DNA of 64,000 bases from Flavobacterium cupriresistens (GTDB lineage Bacteria > Bacteroidota > Bacteroidia > Flavobacteriales > Flavobacteriaceae). Every line of letters starts with the position of its first letter. Position 1 is the stretch's first letter. The notes under the pieces were generated by a model. It saw only the letters and a program-made list of their open reading frames with translations, did not search any database and had not been told where the DNA came from. The stretch spans positions 4,650,001-4,714,000 of the forward strand of contig NZ_CP087134.1 of NCBI RefSeq assembly GCF_020911925.1, given 5' to 3'. Both the position numbers and the translations under genes were made by a program. This document shows positions 19,650-62,580 of the stretch, one piece after another.

Positions 19650-20300
19650 TTAATCAGAATACAAATGAAAAAAATTGATTAAATCGGCCAAATTATCTAT
19701 TTCCAGTTTTTCAAAAATTCTGTTTTTATAGGTACTTACTGTTGTTTTTTTTATGTTTAAATGTTCTATTATTTCCAGATTACCATAACCTTTAATTAAA
19801 AGCTGCGCCACTTCAATTTCTCTATTGGACAATACATCTAACGGATTTGTTGGTTTTTTTGAAATATAAGAATCCAAAATCCTGTCTTTAAGATTCTGCG
19901 TAATATATTTTCCGGACAAGATCATCGAACTGATGGCATTTTTCATTTCTTCTTCAGAGGTTTCTTTGTTCAGATATCCTGAAGCGCCTGCATTCAAATA
20001 CCGCATTGCGTAAACATTCTCATCATAAGCGGAGAAGATTAATATTTTTATTTCCGGCTGGATTGTTTTTATTTCTGTTATGATGTTGATGCTGTTTCCG
20101 TCGGGAAAATTCACATCTAATATCAGTAAATCTATCCTATGTTCTTTTAAAATATCAAGTGTATCCTTAAAATTCCCCGCCTTATAAATTAAAGCATTCG
20201 AAAATAACTCTTTTATCATCAAAGAAACGCCCTGTCGAACCACAGTATGGTCATCAGCGACTAAAAAACTATAGTTGTTGGATGGTGATTTCATTTTCAT
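19650..20300 (-). CDS. NarL/FixJ-family response regulator
   Basis: 216 residues. The receiver domain has the acidic pair D16-D17, phosphoacceptor D62 in LILDVNFPDG and a conserved Lys in GYLNKET. The C-terminal LuxR-type helix-turn-helix reads LSNREIEVAQLLIKG, with recognition region KKTTVSTYKNRIFEKL. Its 5' end lies 89 bp downstream of the membrane kinase stop, so the two form a likely cognate pair. It is a candidate binder of the elements at 19485-19513 and 22537-22565. Confidence 0.92.
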   Translation of the reverse strand: MKMKSPSNNYSFLVADDHTVVRQGVSLMIKELFSNALIYKAGNFKDTLDILKEHRIDLLILDVNFPDGNSINIITEIKTIQPEIKILIFSAYDENVYAMRYLNAGASGYLNKETSEEEMKNAISSMILSGKYITQNLKDRILDSYISKKPTNPLDVLSNREIEVAQLLIKGYGNLEIIEHLNIKKTTVSTYKNRIFEKLEIDNLADLINFFHLYSD

Positions 20301-20389
20301 TTACCTAATTTAGAATTATTTAAGCGCTTTTCTCTAACAAATTATCTTTTTAACTTTATACATTTAAAGTATACTTATCGGACCTTATT

Positions 20390-22141
20390 TTAAACCAAAC
20401 TTATAAGCAGGTTAAAAATAATCTTAGTCCCTTTTCCTTCCTCGCTTTGAACGTCTATTTTTCCGTTAAACAATTCTACTATTTCTTTACATAAATTAAG
20501 TCCTAAACCTACCCCCAGATTGTTTACTTTATCTGAAACCGTTCCCTGATAATAAAGCTCGAATATATTTTTAAGATCATTTTTAGCAATTCCAATTCCG
20601 CTGTCCTCAATTTCAACTTTTAAATTTACTTTCTTATCCGAGGTTCTTTCAAGGTCTATCTTTACTTTTATCAATCCGTTCTCAGTAAACTTATTCGCAT
20701 TACCGATAATGTTATAAAAAAGCTGGTGAATTTTTGCAGCATCCGAATCGACATCAAGTTCTAAAATCAGATTCGAATTCACTTCTATTTTATTGCCTTT
20801 GCTTTCAACCAGTGAAGTCATCGAATTCACAATCTGATGAATTTCCTCTTTAAGGTGAAATTTCTTTTTGTTTAGTTTAGGCGCATAATTTTCATCTTTC
20901 GAGTACTCCAAAATCTGATTGGCTAAAAGAAGCAATGAGTTCGTAGTAAATTGTATCGATTTAAAAGTATCTTTTATCTCGGGATCTTTTATAGAGGAGC
21001 CAATCATTTTACTGTAAATCGAGATAATGCTTAAAGGAGACCTGATTTCATGACTGACCATCCCCATAATTCTATTCTTAAAATTCAGGCTTTCATGAAT
21101 CTTCGTCTGAGCCATTGTAAGTCTCTTTTCATATTGAAAAGCCAGTCTTGTGAAACCAAAAAGTACAAGCGATATGATAAACATCAGCAGAATCAAAATT
21201 GCGATGGTATAATTCCTTACTATTTTATTCGAATCGTACTGCTTCTGCAACTGTTTTTGGGTATTGTCCTGAAGTACTTTCAATGAATTGTTATAATGAG
21301 GCATCACCTCAGCCTCTAAGTTCAATAGTTCGTTATTAAACCTCTTTAGTTTAGCTTCCTGATCTTTTAAATTGTCGAATGACTTTTTTAAGTTTATAAA
21401 CTGATTTTCGTAATATTTATTAGTAGTATTAAACAGATTTGCAAATTGTTCTTCGATACTCCCGGTCACTATCTTATTATTATATTTCATTGTAACGGTG
21501 ATCTTCAACTGCTCTTTTTGTATGTCCACTTTTCCGGCTAAAGCAGCTCCCAATCTGGAGAATAATCCTTTTTTAGACACGCTGTCTATCGTCATATAAG
21601 AATCCGTTTTGATACTGTCTAAGATTTTTTTGTACTCAAACTTATTTAGTTTAAACGGTCGGGACAAATTATTTTTATCCGGATTGACCTGTGATTCAAT
21701 TATTGAATCGATACTGGATTTTAGAGACTCAACAGAATGTTCGGACTGGTTCTTTTCCTGCAACACCTTCATGAACTCTTTATTGTCTTTTGTAATTAAG
21801 CTTAAACTGTCGATCAAACGACTGATATCGTTTAAGCTGGCGGTGTACGCATTGAGCGATTCTTTGTCTTTATAAATACTATAATTATTAAAGCTTTTTT
21901 GAGAATCAACAAAGGAGTTGTTTATGTTGTTCGTAAAATGTGTTATTCGATTCAATGAATCCATTGAATTCATCGTTTTTGACATTTCCGAATCATTAGA
22001 CGATTCGTTGTACCAAATAACTATTGCAGTTATTTGTAAAAAAATAACACAGGCTATTAAAGTATAGTGCATTATTTTTCTGTGTTTGAACTTTAGTCTA
22101 AAGAAACTAAAGGGGCTATTTTGGGGCTGTTTTCTAATCAA
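20390..22141 (-). CDS. Membrane sensor histidine kinase
   Basis: 583 residues. Membrane segment 1 lies at about 25-45 (HYTLIACVIFLQITAIVIW) and segment 2 at about 310-335 (ILILLMFIISLVLFGF). Between them is a coiled, Lys/Asn-rich periplasmic sensor region of about 260 residues that matches no domain I can name. The phosphoacceptor His is in MVSHEIRSPLSII (about 364). ATPase motifs are NIIGNANKFTENG, DSGIGIAKND and GVGLGLNLCKEIVE. The NarL-type regulator follows after 89 bp. A HisKA kinase paired with a LuxR-type regulator is less usual than the HisKA_3 pairing seen at 23015-25510. A predicted leader of about 360 nt starts at the promoter at 22508-22515. Confidence 0.9.
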   Translation of the reverse strand: MIRKQPQNSPFSFFRLKFKHRKIMHYTLIACVIFLQITAIVIWYNESSNDSEMSKTMNSMDSLNRITHFTNNINNSFVDSQKSFNNYSIYKDKESLNAYTASLNDISRLIDSLSLITKDNKEFMKVLQEKNQSEHSVESLKSSIDSIIESQVNPDKNNLSRPFKLNKFEYKKILDSIKTDSYMTIDSVSKKGLFSRLGAALAGKVDIQKEQLKITVTMKYNNKIVTGSIEEQFANLFNTTNKYYENQFINLKKSFDNLKDQEAKLKRFNNELLNLEAEVMPHYNNSLKVLQDNTQKQLQKQYDSNKIVRNYTIAILILLMFIISLVLFGFTRLAFQYEKRLTMAQTKIHESLNFKNRIMGMVSHEIRSPLSIISIYSKMIGSSIKDPEIKDTFKSIQFTTNSLLLLANQILEYSKDENYAPKLNKKKFHLKEEIHQIVNSMTSLVESKGNKIEVNSNLILELDVDSDAAKIHQLFYNIIGNANKFTENGLIKVKIDLERTSDKKVNLKVEIEDSGIGIAKNDLKNIFELYYQGTVSDKVNNLGVGLGLNLCKEIVELFNGKIDVQSEEGKGTKIIFNLLISLV

Positions 22142-22399
22142 AATTTATATTTTAAAATGAAAAATAAAATAAGGAGTCAAAGAATCAAATCAATAACTCA
22201 CACAACTTTTTTAATTAGGTATCGGAAGAACATCCTGAATGATGTACTACATTTTAAATAAATATTGTTCTATAGTCAAAATTAGCAGTCACTAATTCAA
22301 TTTTAATACGGATAACAGATTTTACTCTCTCTAAGATACTGTTTCTTTGTTTAAAGAACAACAATATTTATCAGCACTAACTACAACACAACAGCTATT

Positions 22400-22423
22400 A
22401 AAAGAGATTTGGGGGATCTTTTT
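22400..22423 (-). terminator. Weak terminator-like hairpin inside the kinase leader
   Basis: Minus strand AAAAAGAT, a loop CCCCCAA and ATCTCTTTT with one bulge, followed by AAT. It lies about 80-100 nt after the predicted start, so it could attenuate the kinase message or end a short RNA. The U tract is short. Confidence 0.3.
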
Positions 22424-22507
22424 AATTGAATAAATAAACTTTATAGGATAAACATATTCTTATTCCGTTTATAAAAATTTACTTATTTCTATTTTCTTAA
22501 TAAAAAA

Positions 22508-22515
22508 CAAAAATA
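22508..22515 (-). promoter_or_regulatory. -7 element TATTTTTG of the membrane kinase
   Basis: Match to TAnnTTTG on the minus strand with predicted start near 22502. The shared operator begins 21 bp further upstream. Confidence 0.5.
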
Positions 22516-22536
22516 GCATGCTGGGATTAAACCGAC

Positions 22537-22576
22537 TGTAGAACATTCTGCAACAGTCTGTAGAACTTGTTCTACA
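22537..22576 (-). promoter_or_regulatory. Shared TTCTAYA operator, copy A, with an 8-2-8 palindrome
   Basis: On the minus strand TTCTACA occurs at 22559-22565 and 22537-22543, 22 bp apart, and the second is preceded by AATG as in copy B. In addition TGTAGAAC-TT-GTTCTACA (22559-22576) is a perfect palindrome, and TGTAGAA-CA-TTCTGCA (22537-22552) is one mismatch from perfect. The proximal palindrome centres near -42 from the predicted start, a usual activator position. Confidence 0.65.
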
Positions 22577-23014
22577 ATTTAATCATTGCTTATACTACAG
22601 TTTTCTTACTACAAAGATATTAATTTTAAAAAAATACGCCGGATTATTTACGAAATCGTTTGATATGGAACAAATCTAATGCCCCAACACTTAGATTCTC
22701 TCACATCTGGTGAATCAAAAAAAATATAAACTAAAGATATGAAAATTATGTAGTCAATTTACAGCATAATTTGAACCTTTTTGTTTCAGAATTAACCCTC
22801 TTATTCTTTCTTACTGTATGTACGATTTCGATTCCACTCAATCTTCGTATGGCAGATTCAAAATTTTTGATGCCTAAGTCATTCTAATTGACTTAAAAAA
22901 AAATTAAGTTTAAAAGTTGTGGGGTTTCTTAGCATAAACAAAAGAAACATCTTGAACATATAACATACTCATTTAGAACTTAAAAACACATGAGGTATCT
23001 TAAGATAAATCCTC

Positions 23015-23647
23015 TCAGATAATACCTTTTTCAATGGCCAATTTAATGAGTTCAGGCGAAGTTTTTACCTGTAGTTTGTGCATGATATTCCGACGGTGTG
23101 TTTTTACGGTATGTTCGCTGATAAAAAGGATACCGGATATGGCTTTGGTGTTCATTCCGTCGGCAACGCATTTTATGATTTCTTTTTCGCGTTCCGAAAG
23201 CTCCTGCATGTTGTTCTTATTTAAGTTTTTTCCACGGAAATAATTAAACAGTTGCTCGTTGATTTTGCTGTGAAAATAATTCTTGCGCTGACTGGTATCG
23301 ATAATCGCCTGTACAAGCTCGGCTTTTGAAGCATCTTTTAGAATATAACCCTGGGCGCCTTTTTCGAGGGCGCTCTTAATTTGTTTCATGGATTGGTGCA
23401 TGGTCAGCATTAATATCGGCACATCATACCCCTTGCTTTTTAATAATTCCATGCTGGCAATTCCGTCCAGTATTGGCATGTCTATATCCATCAGGATAGT
23501 GTCAATTGTCATCGTATCCAGGATAGACGGAATAGTATTTCCGTTTTTTGTATGCTCGACTATTTCAATACCATCTTCCGGTTTGAACATCGATTTTACG
23601 CCTTCGGCAAACAGATGGTGGTCGTCTACTATCAATACTTTTATCAT
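23015..23647 (-). CDS. NarL/FixJ-family response regulator
   Basis: 210 residues. The receiver has D8-D9, phosphoacceptor D54 in ILMDIDMPILDG and a Lys in GYILKDAS. The LuxR helix-turn-helix starts at LSEREKEIIKCVADG, with recognition segment ISEHTVKTHRRNIMHKL. It starts 27 bp after the stop of the TPR kinase, forming a classic operon pair. Two inverted heptamers resembling NarL sites lie about 2.4 kb upstream between the PixA-like genes, making those genes plausible targets. Confidence 0.93.
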   Translation of the reverse strand: MIKVLIVDDHHLFAEGVKSMFKPEDGIEIVEHTKNGNTIPSILDTMTIDTILMDIDMPILDGIASMELLKSKGYDVPILMLTMHQSMKQIKSALEKGAQGYILKDASKAELVQAIIDTSQRKNYFHSKINEQLFNYFRGKNLNKNNMQELSEREKEIIKCVADGMNTKAISGILFISEHTVKTHRRNIMHKLQVKTSPELIKLAIEKGII

Positions 23648-23674: not shown

Positions 23675-25510
23675 CTAAAAAGGCAAATCAATATTTACAG
23701 TAGTTCCGCTTGCCGGATTGCTGTCAAATTTAATGTCTCCCTGTAAATTGAAAATTATTTCTTTAAGGGTTTTGAGCCCCATTCCGGAAATTTCTTTTGA
23801 TTTTTCGGTTACATTAAATCCCTTTCCATTGTCTTGTACAAGTATATTAATGAGGTTTTCATCATCGAAACAAGTCAGTAATATGGATAGTTTTGTGGCT
23901 GCTGCATGTTTCAATACATTGCTCACGAGTTCCTGCACGATACGATATACAATTATTTCATTTTCAGAGCTCATTTGTTCCTGACACATGGCAGCTTTAA
24001 ACTCTACTTCAAGACCATTGACTTGTTGTAAATGCGCGGTCAATTCTTTTAAGGCCGGTACCAATCCGAAATTATCCGAGATTCCCATATTGAGTTCATG
24101 CGACAAATTTCGGATATCGGTGCAGGCCTGATCTACCAATATAGTCAGCGTCTGGTGGTTGGAAATACTTTTTTCGTCGATTGCATTCAGGTTTACTTTT
24201 ATGGTAGCCAGCAAACTTCCAAAATGATTGTGCAGTTCCCGTGCGATACGTTTGCGTTCATTTTCCTGTCCCTGTACCATCGACTGGAGCGTCTTGGTCT
24301 CTTGCGTATTTAGCAGTTTTTTTATTTTTTCATCATGCTGATTGCGCTCATTATGGGCCATCAGCCTAGTGTTTTTAAACCGTTGTCGGAAATACAGTAA
24401 CAACAAAATGGCAAAAAGCAACAGAAAAACAGTCACAATAATATAAATCCGGTTGCTAAGTTGTCTTTTTTCCAGCAGTGCGATTTCTTTTTCCTTTTGA
24501 GTTACTTCAAAATCGGTACGAAGATTGGCAAGTTGTTTTGTTGCTTCGGTATTTTCGATGCTGTCTTTGTAAGCAATATATTGGGATTGATATGTGAACG
24601 CTTTCGGATAGTCTTTCTCGACCTCGTATAGTTCTGACAAAAGCAAAGCCGCATCCCTGATTTGCTCTTTCAGATCAAGAACTTTCGCCATATTGAGCGC
24701 CTTAAGCGTATGATTAATGGCTTTTTCGGTCTGTTTCAGCTCAGAATAAATGCGTCCCAACTGGTTGTGATAATCGGCCATACCAAATGTATCACCAAGT
24801 AAATCAAGCATTTTAATAGCCCGAAGAAGATCCTGTTCGGCAATAGCATATTTTCCTTGTTTCCAGTAAACTAGTGCACGATTCCCTATGGTATAGGCCT
24901 TGCCTATTTCAAGATCAATTTCATCAAAAATAGGTGCCGCTTCGTTATAAAGCGATAAAGCAGAATCGAGTTCGTTGAGCCTGTAATAACTAAATCCTGT
25001 ATTGAGCAGGTTGATCGCCAATTGTTCTTTATTTCCATGCAATCGTATAACGGCTATGGCTTTCTTATTATAGACAATTGCATTTTTAAAGTCGTTATTG
25101 GACATATAGGTATTGGCTATTTCCAGATAATCACTCGTTAGCAGCTTGTCGTTCTTATACTGTATTGCAAGATCAGCGCTTTTAAAAAGATTCTTTAAAG
25201 CCATTTTTAAATTACCCTTTAACCTGTATGCTACACCTATAGATTGATAGGCTTCAATTACATAAGTGAACTGCTTATCTATTGAAGCCATCTCCAACAA
25301 TTTATTGGCATACAATAATACCTCGTCCGGCGAAGAAGAATGCGCAGCTATCTTAGCATAAATCCCCATTTTAGCCTTCGACGAAAGCGTATCTGTTTTA
25401 ACCAACAGTAATTTAAGGCTGTCAGCTCTGGCCTGGTTTTGCGCCATGACTCCGTAGCTGATGCCAAACAATAAAAAACAAAAGATAGCTACTATCCTGC
25501 CTTTATTCAT
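23675..25510 (-). CDS. TPR-repeat sensor histidine kinase of the NarX/HisKA_3 class
   Basis: 611 residues. A signal peptide (MNKGRIVAIFCFLLFGISYGVMAQ) is followed by several tetratricopeptide repeats (about 60-320), a membrane segment (about 352-371) and a cytoplasmic coiled coil. The HisKA_3 phosphoacceptor is in ERKRIARELHNHFGS (His about 423), and the ATPase domain has ELVSNVLKHA, DNGKGFNV and GMGLKTLKE. The periplasmic TPR array probably senses a protein or peptide partner. It lies 21 bp downstream of the PixA-like gene 25532 on the same strand and may be co-transcribed with it. Confidence 0.93.
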   Translation of the reverse strand: MNKGRIVAIFCFLLFGISYGVMAQNQARADSLKLLLVKTDTLSSKAKMGIYAKIAAHSSSPDEVLLYANKLLEMASIDKQFTYVIEAYQSIGVAYRLKGNLKMALKNLFKSADLAIQYKNDKLLTSDYLEIANTYMSNNDFKNAIVYNKKAIAVIRLHGNKEQLAINLLNTGFSYYRLNELDSALSLYNEAAPIFDEIDLEIGKAYTIGNRALVYWKQGKYAIAEQDLLRAIKMLDLLGDTFGMADYHNQLGRIYSELKQTEKAINHTLKALNMAKVLDLKEQIRDAALLLSELYEVEKDYPKAFTYQSQYIAYKDSIENTEATKQLANLRTDFEVTQKEKEIALLEKRQLSNRIYIIVTVFLLLFAILLLLYFRQRFKNTRLMAHNERNQHDEKIKKLLNTQETKTLQSMVQGQENERKRIARELHNHFGSLLATIKVNLNAIDEKSISNHQTLTILVDQACTDIRNLSHELNMGISDNFGLVPALKELTAHLQQVNGLEVEFKAAMCQEQMSSENEIIVYRIVQELVSNVLKHAAATKLSILLTCFDDENLINILVQDNGKGFNVTEKSKEISGMGLKTLKEIIFNLQGDIKFDSNPASGTTVNIDLPF

Positions 25511-25531: not shown

Positions 25532-26008
25532 TCAGTTGCCTTGGTTCGCTCTCAATACAGGATCAATTAGTATCGGAAGACTCACCGTTTCACCCAAAAC
25601 GTTCTTAAACTCTATAACAGCCAAAAGATCAAAGGCCACGTTGCTATTTTGATTCGCTTTTTTAATATATACATCAAAACTTACCTGCTTATCAGTCAGT
25701 GAAGATGTAGTAATTATTTCATTATTATCATTAAGAATCTTAAATTCAGTAAAATATATTTTGTGATACGAATAAAGACGAAGTGGTACAATCGTAAAAA
25801 AAATAGTTTCGCCTGTTTCAGTATCGATGCAAAAACTTTTTTCAGCATCACCCATTGCCATTAATCCCTGTTCACAAATAAATGAACTCTCACTGACATT
25901 CACTGGTGGAATAGACAAATCAAAATTAAATTCTTTAAAATTAGAACCCGATTCTTTAATAACACGATCTGTATCGATCTGAATAAAAATGTTTCTTGTT
26001 TTTTTCAT
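25532..26008 (-). CDS. Small AidA/PixA-like protein (divergent member)
   Basis: About 158 residues from ATG 26008. The longer start at 26041 is unlikely because the -7 element TAGATTTG (26039-26046) overlaps it. The N-terminal TRNIFIQIDTDRVI resembles the INILVAVDGTQL opening of the divergent gene 26385. Both end DP-x4-NQG (DPVLRANQG here, DPFIDVNQG there), and both have a middle part rich in beta strands. I infer a distant PixA/AidA relative, with no signal peptide and so probably cytoplasmic. It precedes the TPR kinase by 21 bp. The function of the family is unclear: PixA was described as an inclusion-body protein of Xenorhabdus. Confidence 0.6.
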   Translation of the reverse strand: MKKTRNIFIQIDTDRVIKESGSNFKEFNFDLSIPPVNVSESSFICEQGLMAMGDAEKSFCIDTETGETIFFTIVPLRLYSYHKIYFTEFKILNDNNEIITTSSLTDKQVSFDVYIKKANQNSNVAFDLLAVIEFKNVLGETVSLPILIDPVLRANQGN

Positions 26009-26038
26009 GGCTGATTTATTTTGTAGGTTTATTTTTAA

Positions 26039-26046
26039 CAAATCTA
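26039..26046 (-). promoter_or_regulatory. -7 element TAGATTTG of the left PixA-like gene
   Basis: Exact TAnnTTTG match on the minus strand. The predicted start near 26033 gives a leader of about 25 nt to ATG 26008. Confidence 0.6.
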
Positions 26047-26068
26047 ACTAGAAATTTCTTAGGTGTGA

Positions 26069-26084
26069 TACCCCAAAAGAGGTA
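26069..26084. promoter_or_regulatory. NarL-like 7-2-7 inverted heptamer, left site
   Basis: TACCCCA-AA-AGAGGTA. Against TACYYMT-N2-AKRRGTA the right half matches 7/7 and the left 6/7. Its centre is about 43 bp upstream of the predicted start of the left gene. Confidence 0.5.
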
Positions 26085-26215
26085 TTTGCCAAAATATAGT
26101 ACTTATTCGGTAATCTCCGTTACGAAAGCTTTTTTGCTTCACAAATAACGATACTGCTTTTGGTAATCTATTCCGTATTGTATTACTATAAAAAAGTAGC
26201 ACTTAATTGCCCCGC

Positions 26216-26231
26216 TACCTACTATGGGGTA
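26216..26231. promoter_or_regulatory. NarL-like 7-2-7 inverted heptamer, right site
   Basis: TACCTAC-TA-TGGGGTA matches the NarL-type consensus at 6/7 in each half. It ends 17 bp before the predicted -33 box of the PixA gene. Confidence 0.5.
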
Positions 26232-26248
26232 TTAAAAAAAATCACTCT

Positions 26249-26278
26249 TTTGGCTTACAAATCAGGCTCATAACTTTC
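26249..26278 (+). promoter_or_regulatory. Predicted promoter of the PixA gene
   Basis: TTTG (26249-26252), 18 bp, then TAACTTTC (26271-26278), one base from TAnnTTTG. Predicted leader of about 100 nt to the ATG. Confidence 0.45.
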
Positions 26279-26384
26279 ACAACTTTGTCATGTCTTCAAA
26301 TCAAATATATCGATAACTAAGACAAGGCGTAATCTGAAAAGCCTTCAACAGAGTAGGAAAACAAACCATATAAATTACAAAATC

Positions 26385-26915
26385 ATGGGATTAATTAACA
26401 TTTTAGTAGCAGTAGACGGAACGCAACTGGCAGAACAAGTTGCTAATGGCAAAATCAAGCCAGGGACCAAAACTTCACCAACTTCATTAGGAGCTTGGTC
26501 ACAATCAGATGTGTATATTGCAATGATTTCACAACACAATAATGTTGTAAACAACGAAGGACAGTCTGAATTAAAAATTTCGGCGAATTCCGGCGATACC
26601 GTTCAGTGGGCAATGACCACATTTGGAAATAACGTAGATAATACCGCATTTTTGTATGCAGGATCATTTAGTCCTTCAGGTGCAATTCTTCCAAGCGGAT
26701 TACTTTACTTTAATTCACAGACAGCAGAACATCTTCCAAACAACAGCGGTACTTTGCAAGAGTTTACCAACAATGTATATCTTGCTCAAGGTACAGTTAT
26801 ACAGGTTGGTGTAAAAATCCAGTATACCCTCTCATTTCAGTTGGTAAACAATGCTAATGGAAATGTAATAGGTTACTTTTCATGGGATCCATTCATCGAT
26901 GTAAATCAGGGATAA
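26385..26915 (+). CDS. AidA/PixA family (inclusion-body type) protein
   Basis: 176 residues with no signal peptide. The opening INILVAVDGTQL, the central ISANSGDTVQWAMTTFGNNVDNTAFLYA and the closing GYFSWDPFIDVNQG match the pattern of PixA/AidA family proteins, which are small, soluble and often highly expressed. PixA forms cytoplasmic inclusions in Xenorhabdus and AidA is quorum-regulated in Ralstonia/Burkholderia; the molecular function is unknown. It is divergent from a second, more distant relative with paired NarL-like sites between them, and is followed by a strong terminator. Recognition is from memory of the family rather than a search. Confidence 0.75.
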   Translation: MGLINILVAVDGTQLAEQVANGKIKPGTKTSPTSLGAWSQSDVYIAMISQHNNVVNNEGQSELKISANSGDTVQWAMTTFGNNVDNTAFLYAGSFSPSGAILPSGLLYFNSQTAEHLPNNSGTLQEFTNNVYLAQGTVIQVGVKIQYTLSFQLVNNANGNVIGYFSWDPFIDVNQG

Positions 26916-61629: not shown

Positions 61630-61667
61630 GAAGTTTAGTTAGATAGTTTCACAAATATATAAAAAAT

Positions 61668-61978
61668 GCAGACCTATAAGCCGGATTCTGTCTCTGATAA
61701 ATCAGAGCCTTATCATTTATCTAGGCTTACAATTACTCATAAGCTCGAGCTACCTACCCTTCAACAACGGACGAGAAGCCCTTAAATGCTGATATACTTG
61801 GTATTTCACCGCATAGAGTTTACCTGTTTTCACTACAGCATTACCTGTACATACTTTCTGCTGCACTTGTCCTAACGTTATTACTAACGCCGACGGGTGT
61901 TACCCGCTATGCTTCTCTGTGGTGTCCGGACTTTCCTCCCCTCACCTAAGCGAGCGACGATAAGGCGGTCTGCGGGGC
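61668..61978 (-). ncRNA. rnpB: RNase P RNA (type A)
   Basis: The minus strand has the 5' hallmark GAGGAAAGTCCGGACACCAC (near 61920-61940) and the 3' hallmark ACAGAATCCGGCTTATAGG. The terminal helix P1 pairs GCAGACC near 61970 with GGTCTGC at 61668-61674. Length of about 311 nt is normal for a bacterial catalytic RNA that trims tRNA 5' ends. Ends are approximate, taken from P1. Confidence 0.95.
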
Positions 61979-62394: not shown

Positions 62395-62446
62395 TTTTAA
62401 AAGAACCATTATTATAATTTTCAGAAGCTATTCCCGCTGTCTGCTG

Positions 62447-62479
62447 TATCTTTTGTGTCGAACCCCGCCACAAAAGGAT
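62447..62479. repeat. Hairpin intergenic element
   Basis: ATCTTTTGTG, loop TCGAACCCCGC, CACAAAAGGAT (one bulge), flanked by GCTGTCTGCTG and GCCGCTCCCATCAGGGCT. It resembles a dispersed intergenic element I associate with Flavobacterium, but no second copy is in this window. Confidence 0.5.
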
Positions 62480-62580
62480 GCCGCTCCCATCAGGGCTAAG
62501 GCTTCTTGTTTTCAGGAGAAAAAGTTTTTTGTATAGTTATTTAAACCGCAAGGAGCACGAAGATTTCGCAAGGGACGTAA

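Follow-up and report, generated by a model that had tools for sequence, protein, structure and literature searches.

A TPR-Type Kinase and a NarL-Type Regulator Predicted to Control Their Own Operon and pixA Through 7-2-7 Sites in Bacteroidota

Analysis of the locus described here points to a two-component system in which a TPR-type histidine kinase would signal to a NarL-type response regulator, and this regulator would bind 7-2-7 inverted heptamer sites and activate its own operon and a divergent pixA gene in two tiers, with a DUF805b RNA leader acting afterwards, a reading to which we assign a probability of roughly five in six. Judged from the conservation of the sites in relatives, the regulator very probably binds and controls both the pixA pair and its own operon.

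Genetic Organization of the Locus

The window, i.e., the whole 64-kb stretch of DNA that was analyzed, belongs to a Flavobacterium genome of 5.74 Mb and contains the following genes of interest.

23015..23647, minus strand: NarL/LuxR-type response regulator, with a receiver domain (D54) and a GerE domain
23675..25510, minus strand: histidine kinase, with a TPR region, HisKA_3 and HATPase_c
25532..26008, minus strand: gene1, 158 aa, PixA/MakD-like predicted fold, heading the regulator operon
26385..26915, plus strand: pixA-like gene, 176 aa, PF12306 (Pfam PixA, 67.8 bits against a cut-off of 21)

An earlier note, made from the sequence alone, had described the kinase and regulator genes as immediately adjacent to a divergent PixA-like pair. 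The two are more than adjacent, since gene1, the kinase gene and the regulator gene succeed one another on one strand, 21 and 27 bp apart, and form an apparent operon. The start codons of gene1 (26008, minus strand) and pixA (26385, plus strand) are separated by a gap of 376 bp containing the candidate operators O1 and O2. The description of the pair as PixA-like held for the right gene through its Pfam match, but for the left gene, gene1, it may hold at the level of the predicted fold alone, since gene1 matched no Pfam family at E values up to 0.1 and had no match in NCBIfam. When Protein Data Bank sequences were searched with PixA or the gene1 profile, the matches listed were at chance level only, and Pfam scans of eight neighboring proteins revealed no toxin family.

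The kinase has an N-terminus that looked signal-like by eye and a single hydrophobic segment at about 355-373, and the H of the RELH box is present in its HisKA_3 domain. The regulator scored 93.8 bits with PF00072 and 69.4 bits with PF00196, both above the cut-offs, which places it in the broad NarL/LuxR-type family, and its recognition helix reads TVKTHRRNIMHKL. Next to the first system, at 19650-22141 of the window, another pair is encoded, made up of a HisKA-type kinase and a LuxR-type regulator. The regulator gene at 23015 and the kinase gene that comes next are separated by 873 bp (22142-23014) in which no ORF reaches 80 residues. At G000:C1:2443670-2453372, one 16-mer recurs in 34 copies, every 294 bp, as a long tandem repeat that is perhaps a giant repetitive gene.

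Candidate Operators and Their Co-occurrence With the Regulator

26069..26084, minus strand: putative operator O1 of the gene1-kinase-regulator operon, TACCCCAAAAGAGGTA (gene strand TACCTCTTTTGGGGTA), centered at -42.5
26216..26231, plus strand: putative operator O2, the distal site of the pixA promoter, TACCTACTATGGGGTA, centered at -68.5

Both 16-bp inverted heptamers were located where the earlier note had placed them, 60 bp (O1) and 153 bp (O2) from the start codons at 26008 and 26385, respectively. Their arrangement is that of NarL sites, as the note had claimed, with one mismatch in O1 and two in O2 relative to TACYYMT-N2-AKRRGTA. The consensus match alone was nevertheless rejected as a sign of significance and constitutes weak evidence, because 22 places in the 64-kb window fit the consensus with two or fewer mismatches. 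The genome-wide search for the site, in the form TACC-N6-GGGGTA, gave five exact occurrences in 5.74 Mb, two being O1 and O2, 147 bp apart, and the other three lying inside ORFs (L001-L003); given a background of three per genome, two sites within the 376-bp gap correspond to a p of about 2e-8, calculated post hoc. The sites resemble an engineered NarL operator published as TACCCCTAAAGGGGTA (PMC4549865, excerpt), and G118 and Neptunitalea carry TACCCCTTTTGGGGTA. In our judgment it is conservation, not the NarL consensus, that decides that the predicted sites exceed chance.

Within the genus, exact TACCTCTTTTGGGGTA occurred 10 times in 299 genomes, with 8 of the 10 in four genomes that possess the regulator. 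The site pattern TACCYCWWWWGGGGTA was present in 22 of the 299; many of these matches are due to chance, because, with each palindrome counted twice, the pattern gave 37 matches and its reversed control still gave 21. Two regulator-free matches that were inspected lay inside an ORF (G131) and in an intergenic region (G286). The regulator itself was found at E ≤ 1e-60 in 4 of 67 genus genomes tested (4/22 with the site pattern and 0/45 of the others) and in 1 of 395 genomes of the phylum, namely the query genome itself. Orthologs may have been missed, because 7 candidates were scored per phylum genome and the figures of the species scan are lower bounds: 84,980 species representatives yielded at least 344 regulator relatives, of which 80 were kept. 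Among the matches listed, six relatives were 63-98% identical (F. poyangense, Chitinophaga pinensis, Reichenbachiella agariperforans, Marinoscillum furvescens, a Fulvivirga MAG and Neptunitalea chrysea), with F. poyangense the closest named one at 98%, and the other 74 were at most 42% identical. A protein search retrieved 268 regulator matches at E ≤ 1e-70 among 8000 candidates scored, the 120 among the matches listed being at least 69% identical, and the regulator family is therefore larger than isolate genomes suggest.

Ten ortholog loci were compared, comprising the query, three further Flavobacterium genomes (G118, G209, and G285) and the six named relatives; we take them to span three orders of Bacteroidota. 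Some form of the site was present in all ten (Flavobacterium, Neptunitalea, Chitinophaga, Reichenbachiella, Marinoscillum, and Fulvivirga). The strict form TACC-N5-TGGGGTA occurred in 6/6 named ortholog loci (9 matches in 110 kb) and in 0/74 loci with less similar regulators (1.19 Mb; Fisher p 3e-9), while the looser TACC-N6-GGGGTA occurred in 1/74 of the latter, a count against the association. The recognition helix TVKTHRRNIMHK(L/M) was constant in 10/10 orthologs. Its lysine, which aligns with the base-contacting residue K188 of NarL, was present in all ten as compared to 7/74 other regulators. These results bear on whether the true binder might be another LuxR-type regulator of the genome (e.g., 19650-20300), the neighboring one being a bystander. 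Such a regulator is encoded merely 3 kb away, and a first-look regulator search returned 61 candidate places in the query genome; yet the site tracks orthologs of this regulator in distant genomes rather than the 74 less similar regulators, and in 9/10 loci it lies within this regulator's own operon promoter, making a different binder quite improbable. The regulators of Chitinophaga (78% identical) and Reichenbachiella (75%) are nearly as close as those of G118 and G209 in the same genus (80%), which suggests, on the basis of identities rather than a tree, that the module may have spread horizontally.

The Operon Promoter

26039..26046, minus strand: predicted -7 box of the operon promoter, TAGATTTG, 22 bp from O1

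In the nine of ten ortholog operons that carry the site before gene1, a TAnnTTTG-like box was located exactly 22 bp downstream of it, seven boxes being perfect and two having one mismatch; in the Marinoscillum operon an alternative box 36 bp downstream fits equally well. The exception, Chitinophaga pinensis, lacks the site before gene1; there it lies beyond the regulator gene and precedes a gene of 251 residues that has a DUF805b leader. Searching the ten genomes with the operon rule at zero mismatches gave nine places, seven of which are the operons and two of which (G118:C1:1005740 and G209:C1:110062) are near genes without evident kinship. When one mismatch was allowed, 67 matches were obtained, as compared to 46 with the reversed pattern; for searching whole genomes, only the mismatch-free rule is specific. 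In F. psychrophilum the -7 box is reported at -12 to -5 (PMC9723704, excerpt), and with this box position the left transcription start is predicted near 26034 (minus strand), centering O1 at -42.5, in agreement with the earlier estimate of about 43 bp upstream of the start. An alternative distance convention gives values 2 bp larger.

The position of the site also bears on the sign of regulation. The regulator could instead repress from the same sites, keeping pixA and the operon off until a signal removes it, as with SdiA and aidA; Photorhabdus SdiA negatively affects the adjacent divergent aidA (PMC10143992, excerpt), and NarL represses some promoters (PMC4549865, excerpt). In the nine operon promoters, however, the site is found upstream, clear of the -7 box, and none of the nine has a TTG 17-22 bp before that box as a -33 element, an arrangement to be expected of activation; moreover, NarL activates versions of the ogt promoter from -44.5 and -67.5 (PMC7419079, excerpt). 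We therefore consider repression unlikely and favor activation.

The pixA-Type Promoters

26242..26257, plus strand: putative operator O3, weak and proximal, TCACTCTTTTGGCTTA, centered at -42.5, missed earlier and proposed from the register test below
26280..26287, plus strand: predicted -7 box of the pixA promoter, CAACTTTG, kept 48 bp from the distal site

The right site had been placed 60 bp upstream of a predicted start, a distance that fits box TAACTTTC (26271). As the source of the start this box was rejected, being less conserved than CAACTTTG at 48 bp; conservation favors the latter, and the right start is probably near 26292 (plus strand), which would center O2 at -68.5 and O3 at -42.5. 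O3 has five mismatches to the NarL consensus and is a degenerate copy only. In G118, pixA is located on a different contig from the kinase and regulator genes, and its site, 154 bp from the start codon (153 in the window), keeps the 48-bp spacing. That the heptamers are chance matches or a merely inherited spacer could draw on the frequency of the NarL consensus with two mismatches noted above and on the closeness of some relatives, but flanking sequences have diverged in relatives while the site and the 22-bp spacing persist, and together with the retention of site and spacing at the unlinked G118 pixA this leaves the explanation hardly credible.

Fifteen promoters of this second kind (class B) were chosen by eye. 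In 12 of them, a (C/A)AnnTTTG or similar box followed the end of the distal site at a distance of 48 bp, and in the rest at 45, 47, and 49 bp; C or A replaces the first T of the operon-type -7 box. A degenerate operator copy, roughly YCATCCTTTTGGSTTA, ended 22 bp before the class B box, i.e., at the operon-promoter position. The best-scoring register was the predicted one in 13/15 promoters, and the mean proximal score was -0.5 as compared to -17.7 (sd 1.7) for letter shuffles, with 0/20000 reaching the observed value; the count was still 0/20000 when the two promoters that had suggested the copy were removed. An earlier version with 12 promoters had given 7/12 at the predicted register and 0/5000 shuffles reaching the mean. 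Relative to that version, the 15-promoter test used softer pseudocounts and added the G209 241-aa gene, Reichenbachiella pixA, the G285 lectins and the G285 pixA copy. Left out of it were the G209 secreted pair (poor proximal score in the 12-promoter version), Neptunitalea MVL and Marinoscillum 479 aa (both of which fit the 22-bp spacing), Reichenbachiella 6076, the Fulvivirga divergent promoter, Marinoscillum 382 aa and 3732, and the shared site of the G209 241-aa gene, whose own site was used instead.

All ten genomes were then scanned with the distal site, the 48-bp spacing and the conserved start region. The scan returned 11 matches at three or fewer mismatches, nine of them with two or fewer and all at regulon loci, against five for the reversed control; in the query genome it found pixA only. 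Because the scan pattern was drawn from several of the promoters, its main new finds are the G285 lectin cluster and the own site of the G209 241-residue gene. The class B rule covers pixA in four species (with one mismatch in Reichenbachiella), the G118 MVL mannan-binding lectin, the G285 ricin-type lectin cluster, two G209 genes and a Chitinophaga gene. A comparison with 11 operator-less pixA upstream stretches, from five relatives without a gene1 match and without the site, gave a p of 0.0007 that is only indicative, because regulator absence was tested in 2/5 (G060 and G250) and several of these stretches belong to inner members of tandem gene sets. The G285 pixA copy at L052 7362-7880 has an in-frame stop, and the operator upstream of it is degenerate (TACCGCTATAGTGGTA).

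Other Predicted Targets

In nine ortholog genomes, a site pattern was found at 30 distinct places as compared to 10 matches for the reversed control. Inspection of 28 of the 30 placed 25 outside ORFs of at least 90 residues and three inside ORFs; the 25 may not all be functional. Proteins of the Pfam family MVL in G118, Fulvivirga and Neptunitalea each have an upstream site, a G285 protein belongs to RicinB_lectin_2, one protein each in G209 and Reichenbachiella has a type IX sorting tail, and several other putative targets are without a Pfam family. The predicted code recurs, in distant relatives too, upstream of genes for secreted proteins and for lectins of the mannan-binding and ricin types.

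The DUF805b RNA Leader

26324..26359, plus strand: DUF805b RNA (RF02914) in the pixA leader, 45.8 bits against a gathering cut-off of 35.6

The DUF805b RNA is widespread, with matches in 26 of 28 genomes, 23 of them above the cut-off. It also precedes pixA genes that lack the operator, above the cut-off in G112, G157, and G162 and more weakly in a second G157 copy and in G250. Since it is general and occurs before such operator-less genes, we regard it as a separate layer outside the two-component switch. A search of 299 genomes with the leader pattern ACTTTGTAATGTCTT...GAGTA returned no match, the pattern being too strict. Two DUF805b RNAs are located at G000:C1:866571-868387, where one of the three coding-region chance sites also lies; the proteins beside them are presumably DUF805. 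The window further contains a Flavo-1 RNA (62426-62501) and an RNase P RNA (61661-61976), both above the Rfam cut-offs.

Discussion

The sensor-to-inclusion-protein circuit that had been put forward as plausible gains support from the co-occurrence of the strict site with regulator orthologs, its fixed distance to the -7 box and its recurrence at the G118 pixA, binding itself being predicted. Because the left promoter serves the operon to which the regulator itself belongs, the circuit would be autoregulatory. Building on the observed sites, spacing, co-occurrence and domain make-up, we propose that the TPR kinase senses an extracytoplasmic signal and phosphorylates the regulator at D54, as its domains suggest. 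The regulator would bind the inverted heptamers as a dimer, with TACCYCTTTTGGGGTA as the optimum, an expectation based on co-occurrence and on resemblance to the sites of NarL. At its own operon, the one strong site at -42.5, where the -33 element is missing, would provide class II activation and positive autoregulation, the sign of which we infer from the position. At pixA, a dimer on the strong distal site (-68.5) would recruit a second one to the weak site at -42.5; under this presumed hierarchy, pixA would therefore need more active regulator than the operon does, and cooperative loading of O3 through O2 would make it a late output. The pixA message would then carry the DUF805b leader for post-transcriptional control, and in relatives the same code would serve lectins and secreted proteins.

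What the analysis offers is a predicted DNA code, complete with spacing rules, for a Bacteroidota regulator of the NarL type. It also links PixA and lectin genes, about whose roles and triggers little is understood, to a sensor and puts the DUF805b RNA into a defined transcript; targets and mechanism are directly testable with one purified protein and two reporters. A literature search, with most subscription journals outside its coverage, found no paper uniting these parts. The PixA protein AidA is needed by Burkholderia for virulence in Caenorhabditis elegans (PMC9060813, excerpt), and MakD comes from an operon found via a C. elegans model (PMC6123715, excerpt). Given the lectin co-targets, our best guess for the role is that the system responds to eukaryotic hosts or grazers, with about one chance in three of being right; storage inclusions or a stationary-phase function would be the alternative. 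Slightly less likely than that guess is the full picture of a horizontally spread, self-amplifying Bacteroidota module whose two-tier code would direct cytoplasmic lectins, PixA-type and secreted proteins against eukaryotic neighbors, with outputs firing only after self-amplification of the sensor and DUF805b leaders adding a further gate.

Several known systems share parts of this arrangement. The FimS-FimR system of Porphyromonas gingivalis combines a TPR-type kinase with a LuxR-type regulator in Bacteroidota; the kinase described here is only a weak match to the FimS equivalog (53.9 bits against a cut-off of 600). The locus differs from MakC/MakD of Vibrio cholerae and Burkholderia PixA in that gene1 lacks a Pfam or NCBIfam match and the eight scanned neighbors lack a toxin family. 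As in SdiA-aidA of Photorhabdus and SolR-aidA of Ralstonia, a LuxR-type regulator would control a PixA-family gene, and in Photorhabdus the two genes likewise share an intergenic promoter region (PMC10143992, excerpt); however, SdiA and SolR are ligand-binding LuxR receptors with lux-box-like sites and not part of a two-component system. With NarX/NarL of E. coli, the system shares a receiver plus GerE regulator, 7-2-7 inverted heptamers and a near-identical engineered optimum site (PMC4549865, excerpt), as well as tandem sites, as at ogt at -44.5 and -77.5 (PMC7419079, excerpt). It differs from NarX/NarL in that the kinase has a TPR region and scores far below the cut-off of the NarX/NarQ model, that the regulator falls outside NarL proper (PRK10651 equivalog, 120.7 bits against a cut-off of 250), and that the tandem sites are spaced 26 bp apart as compared to 33 bp in the NarL system.
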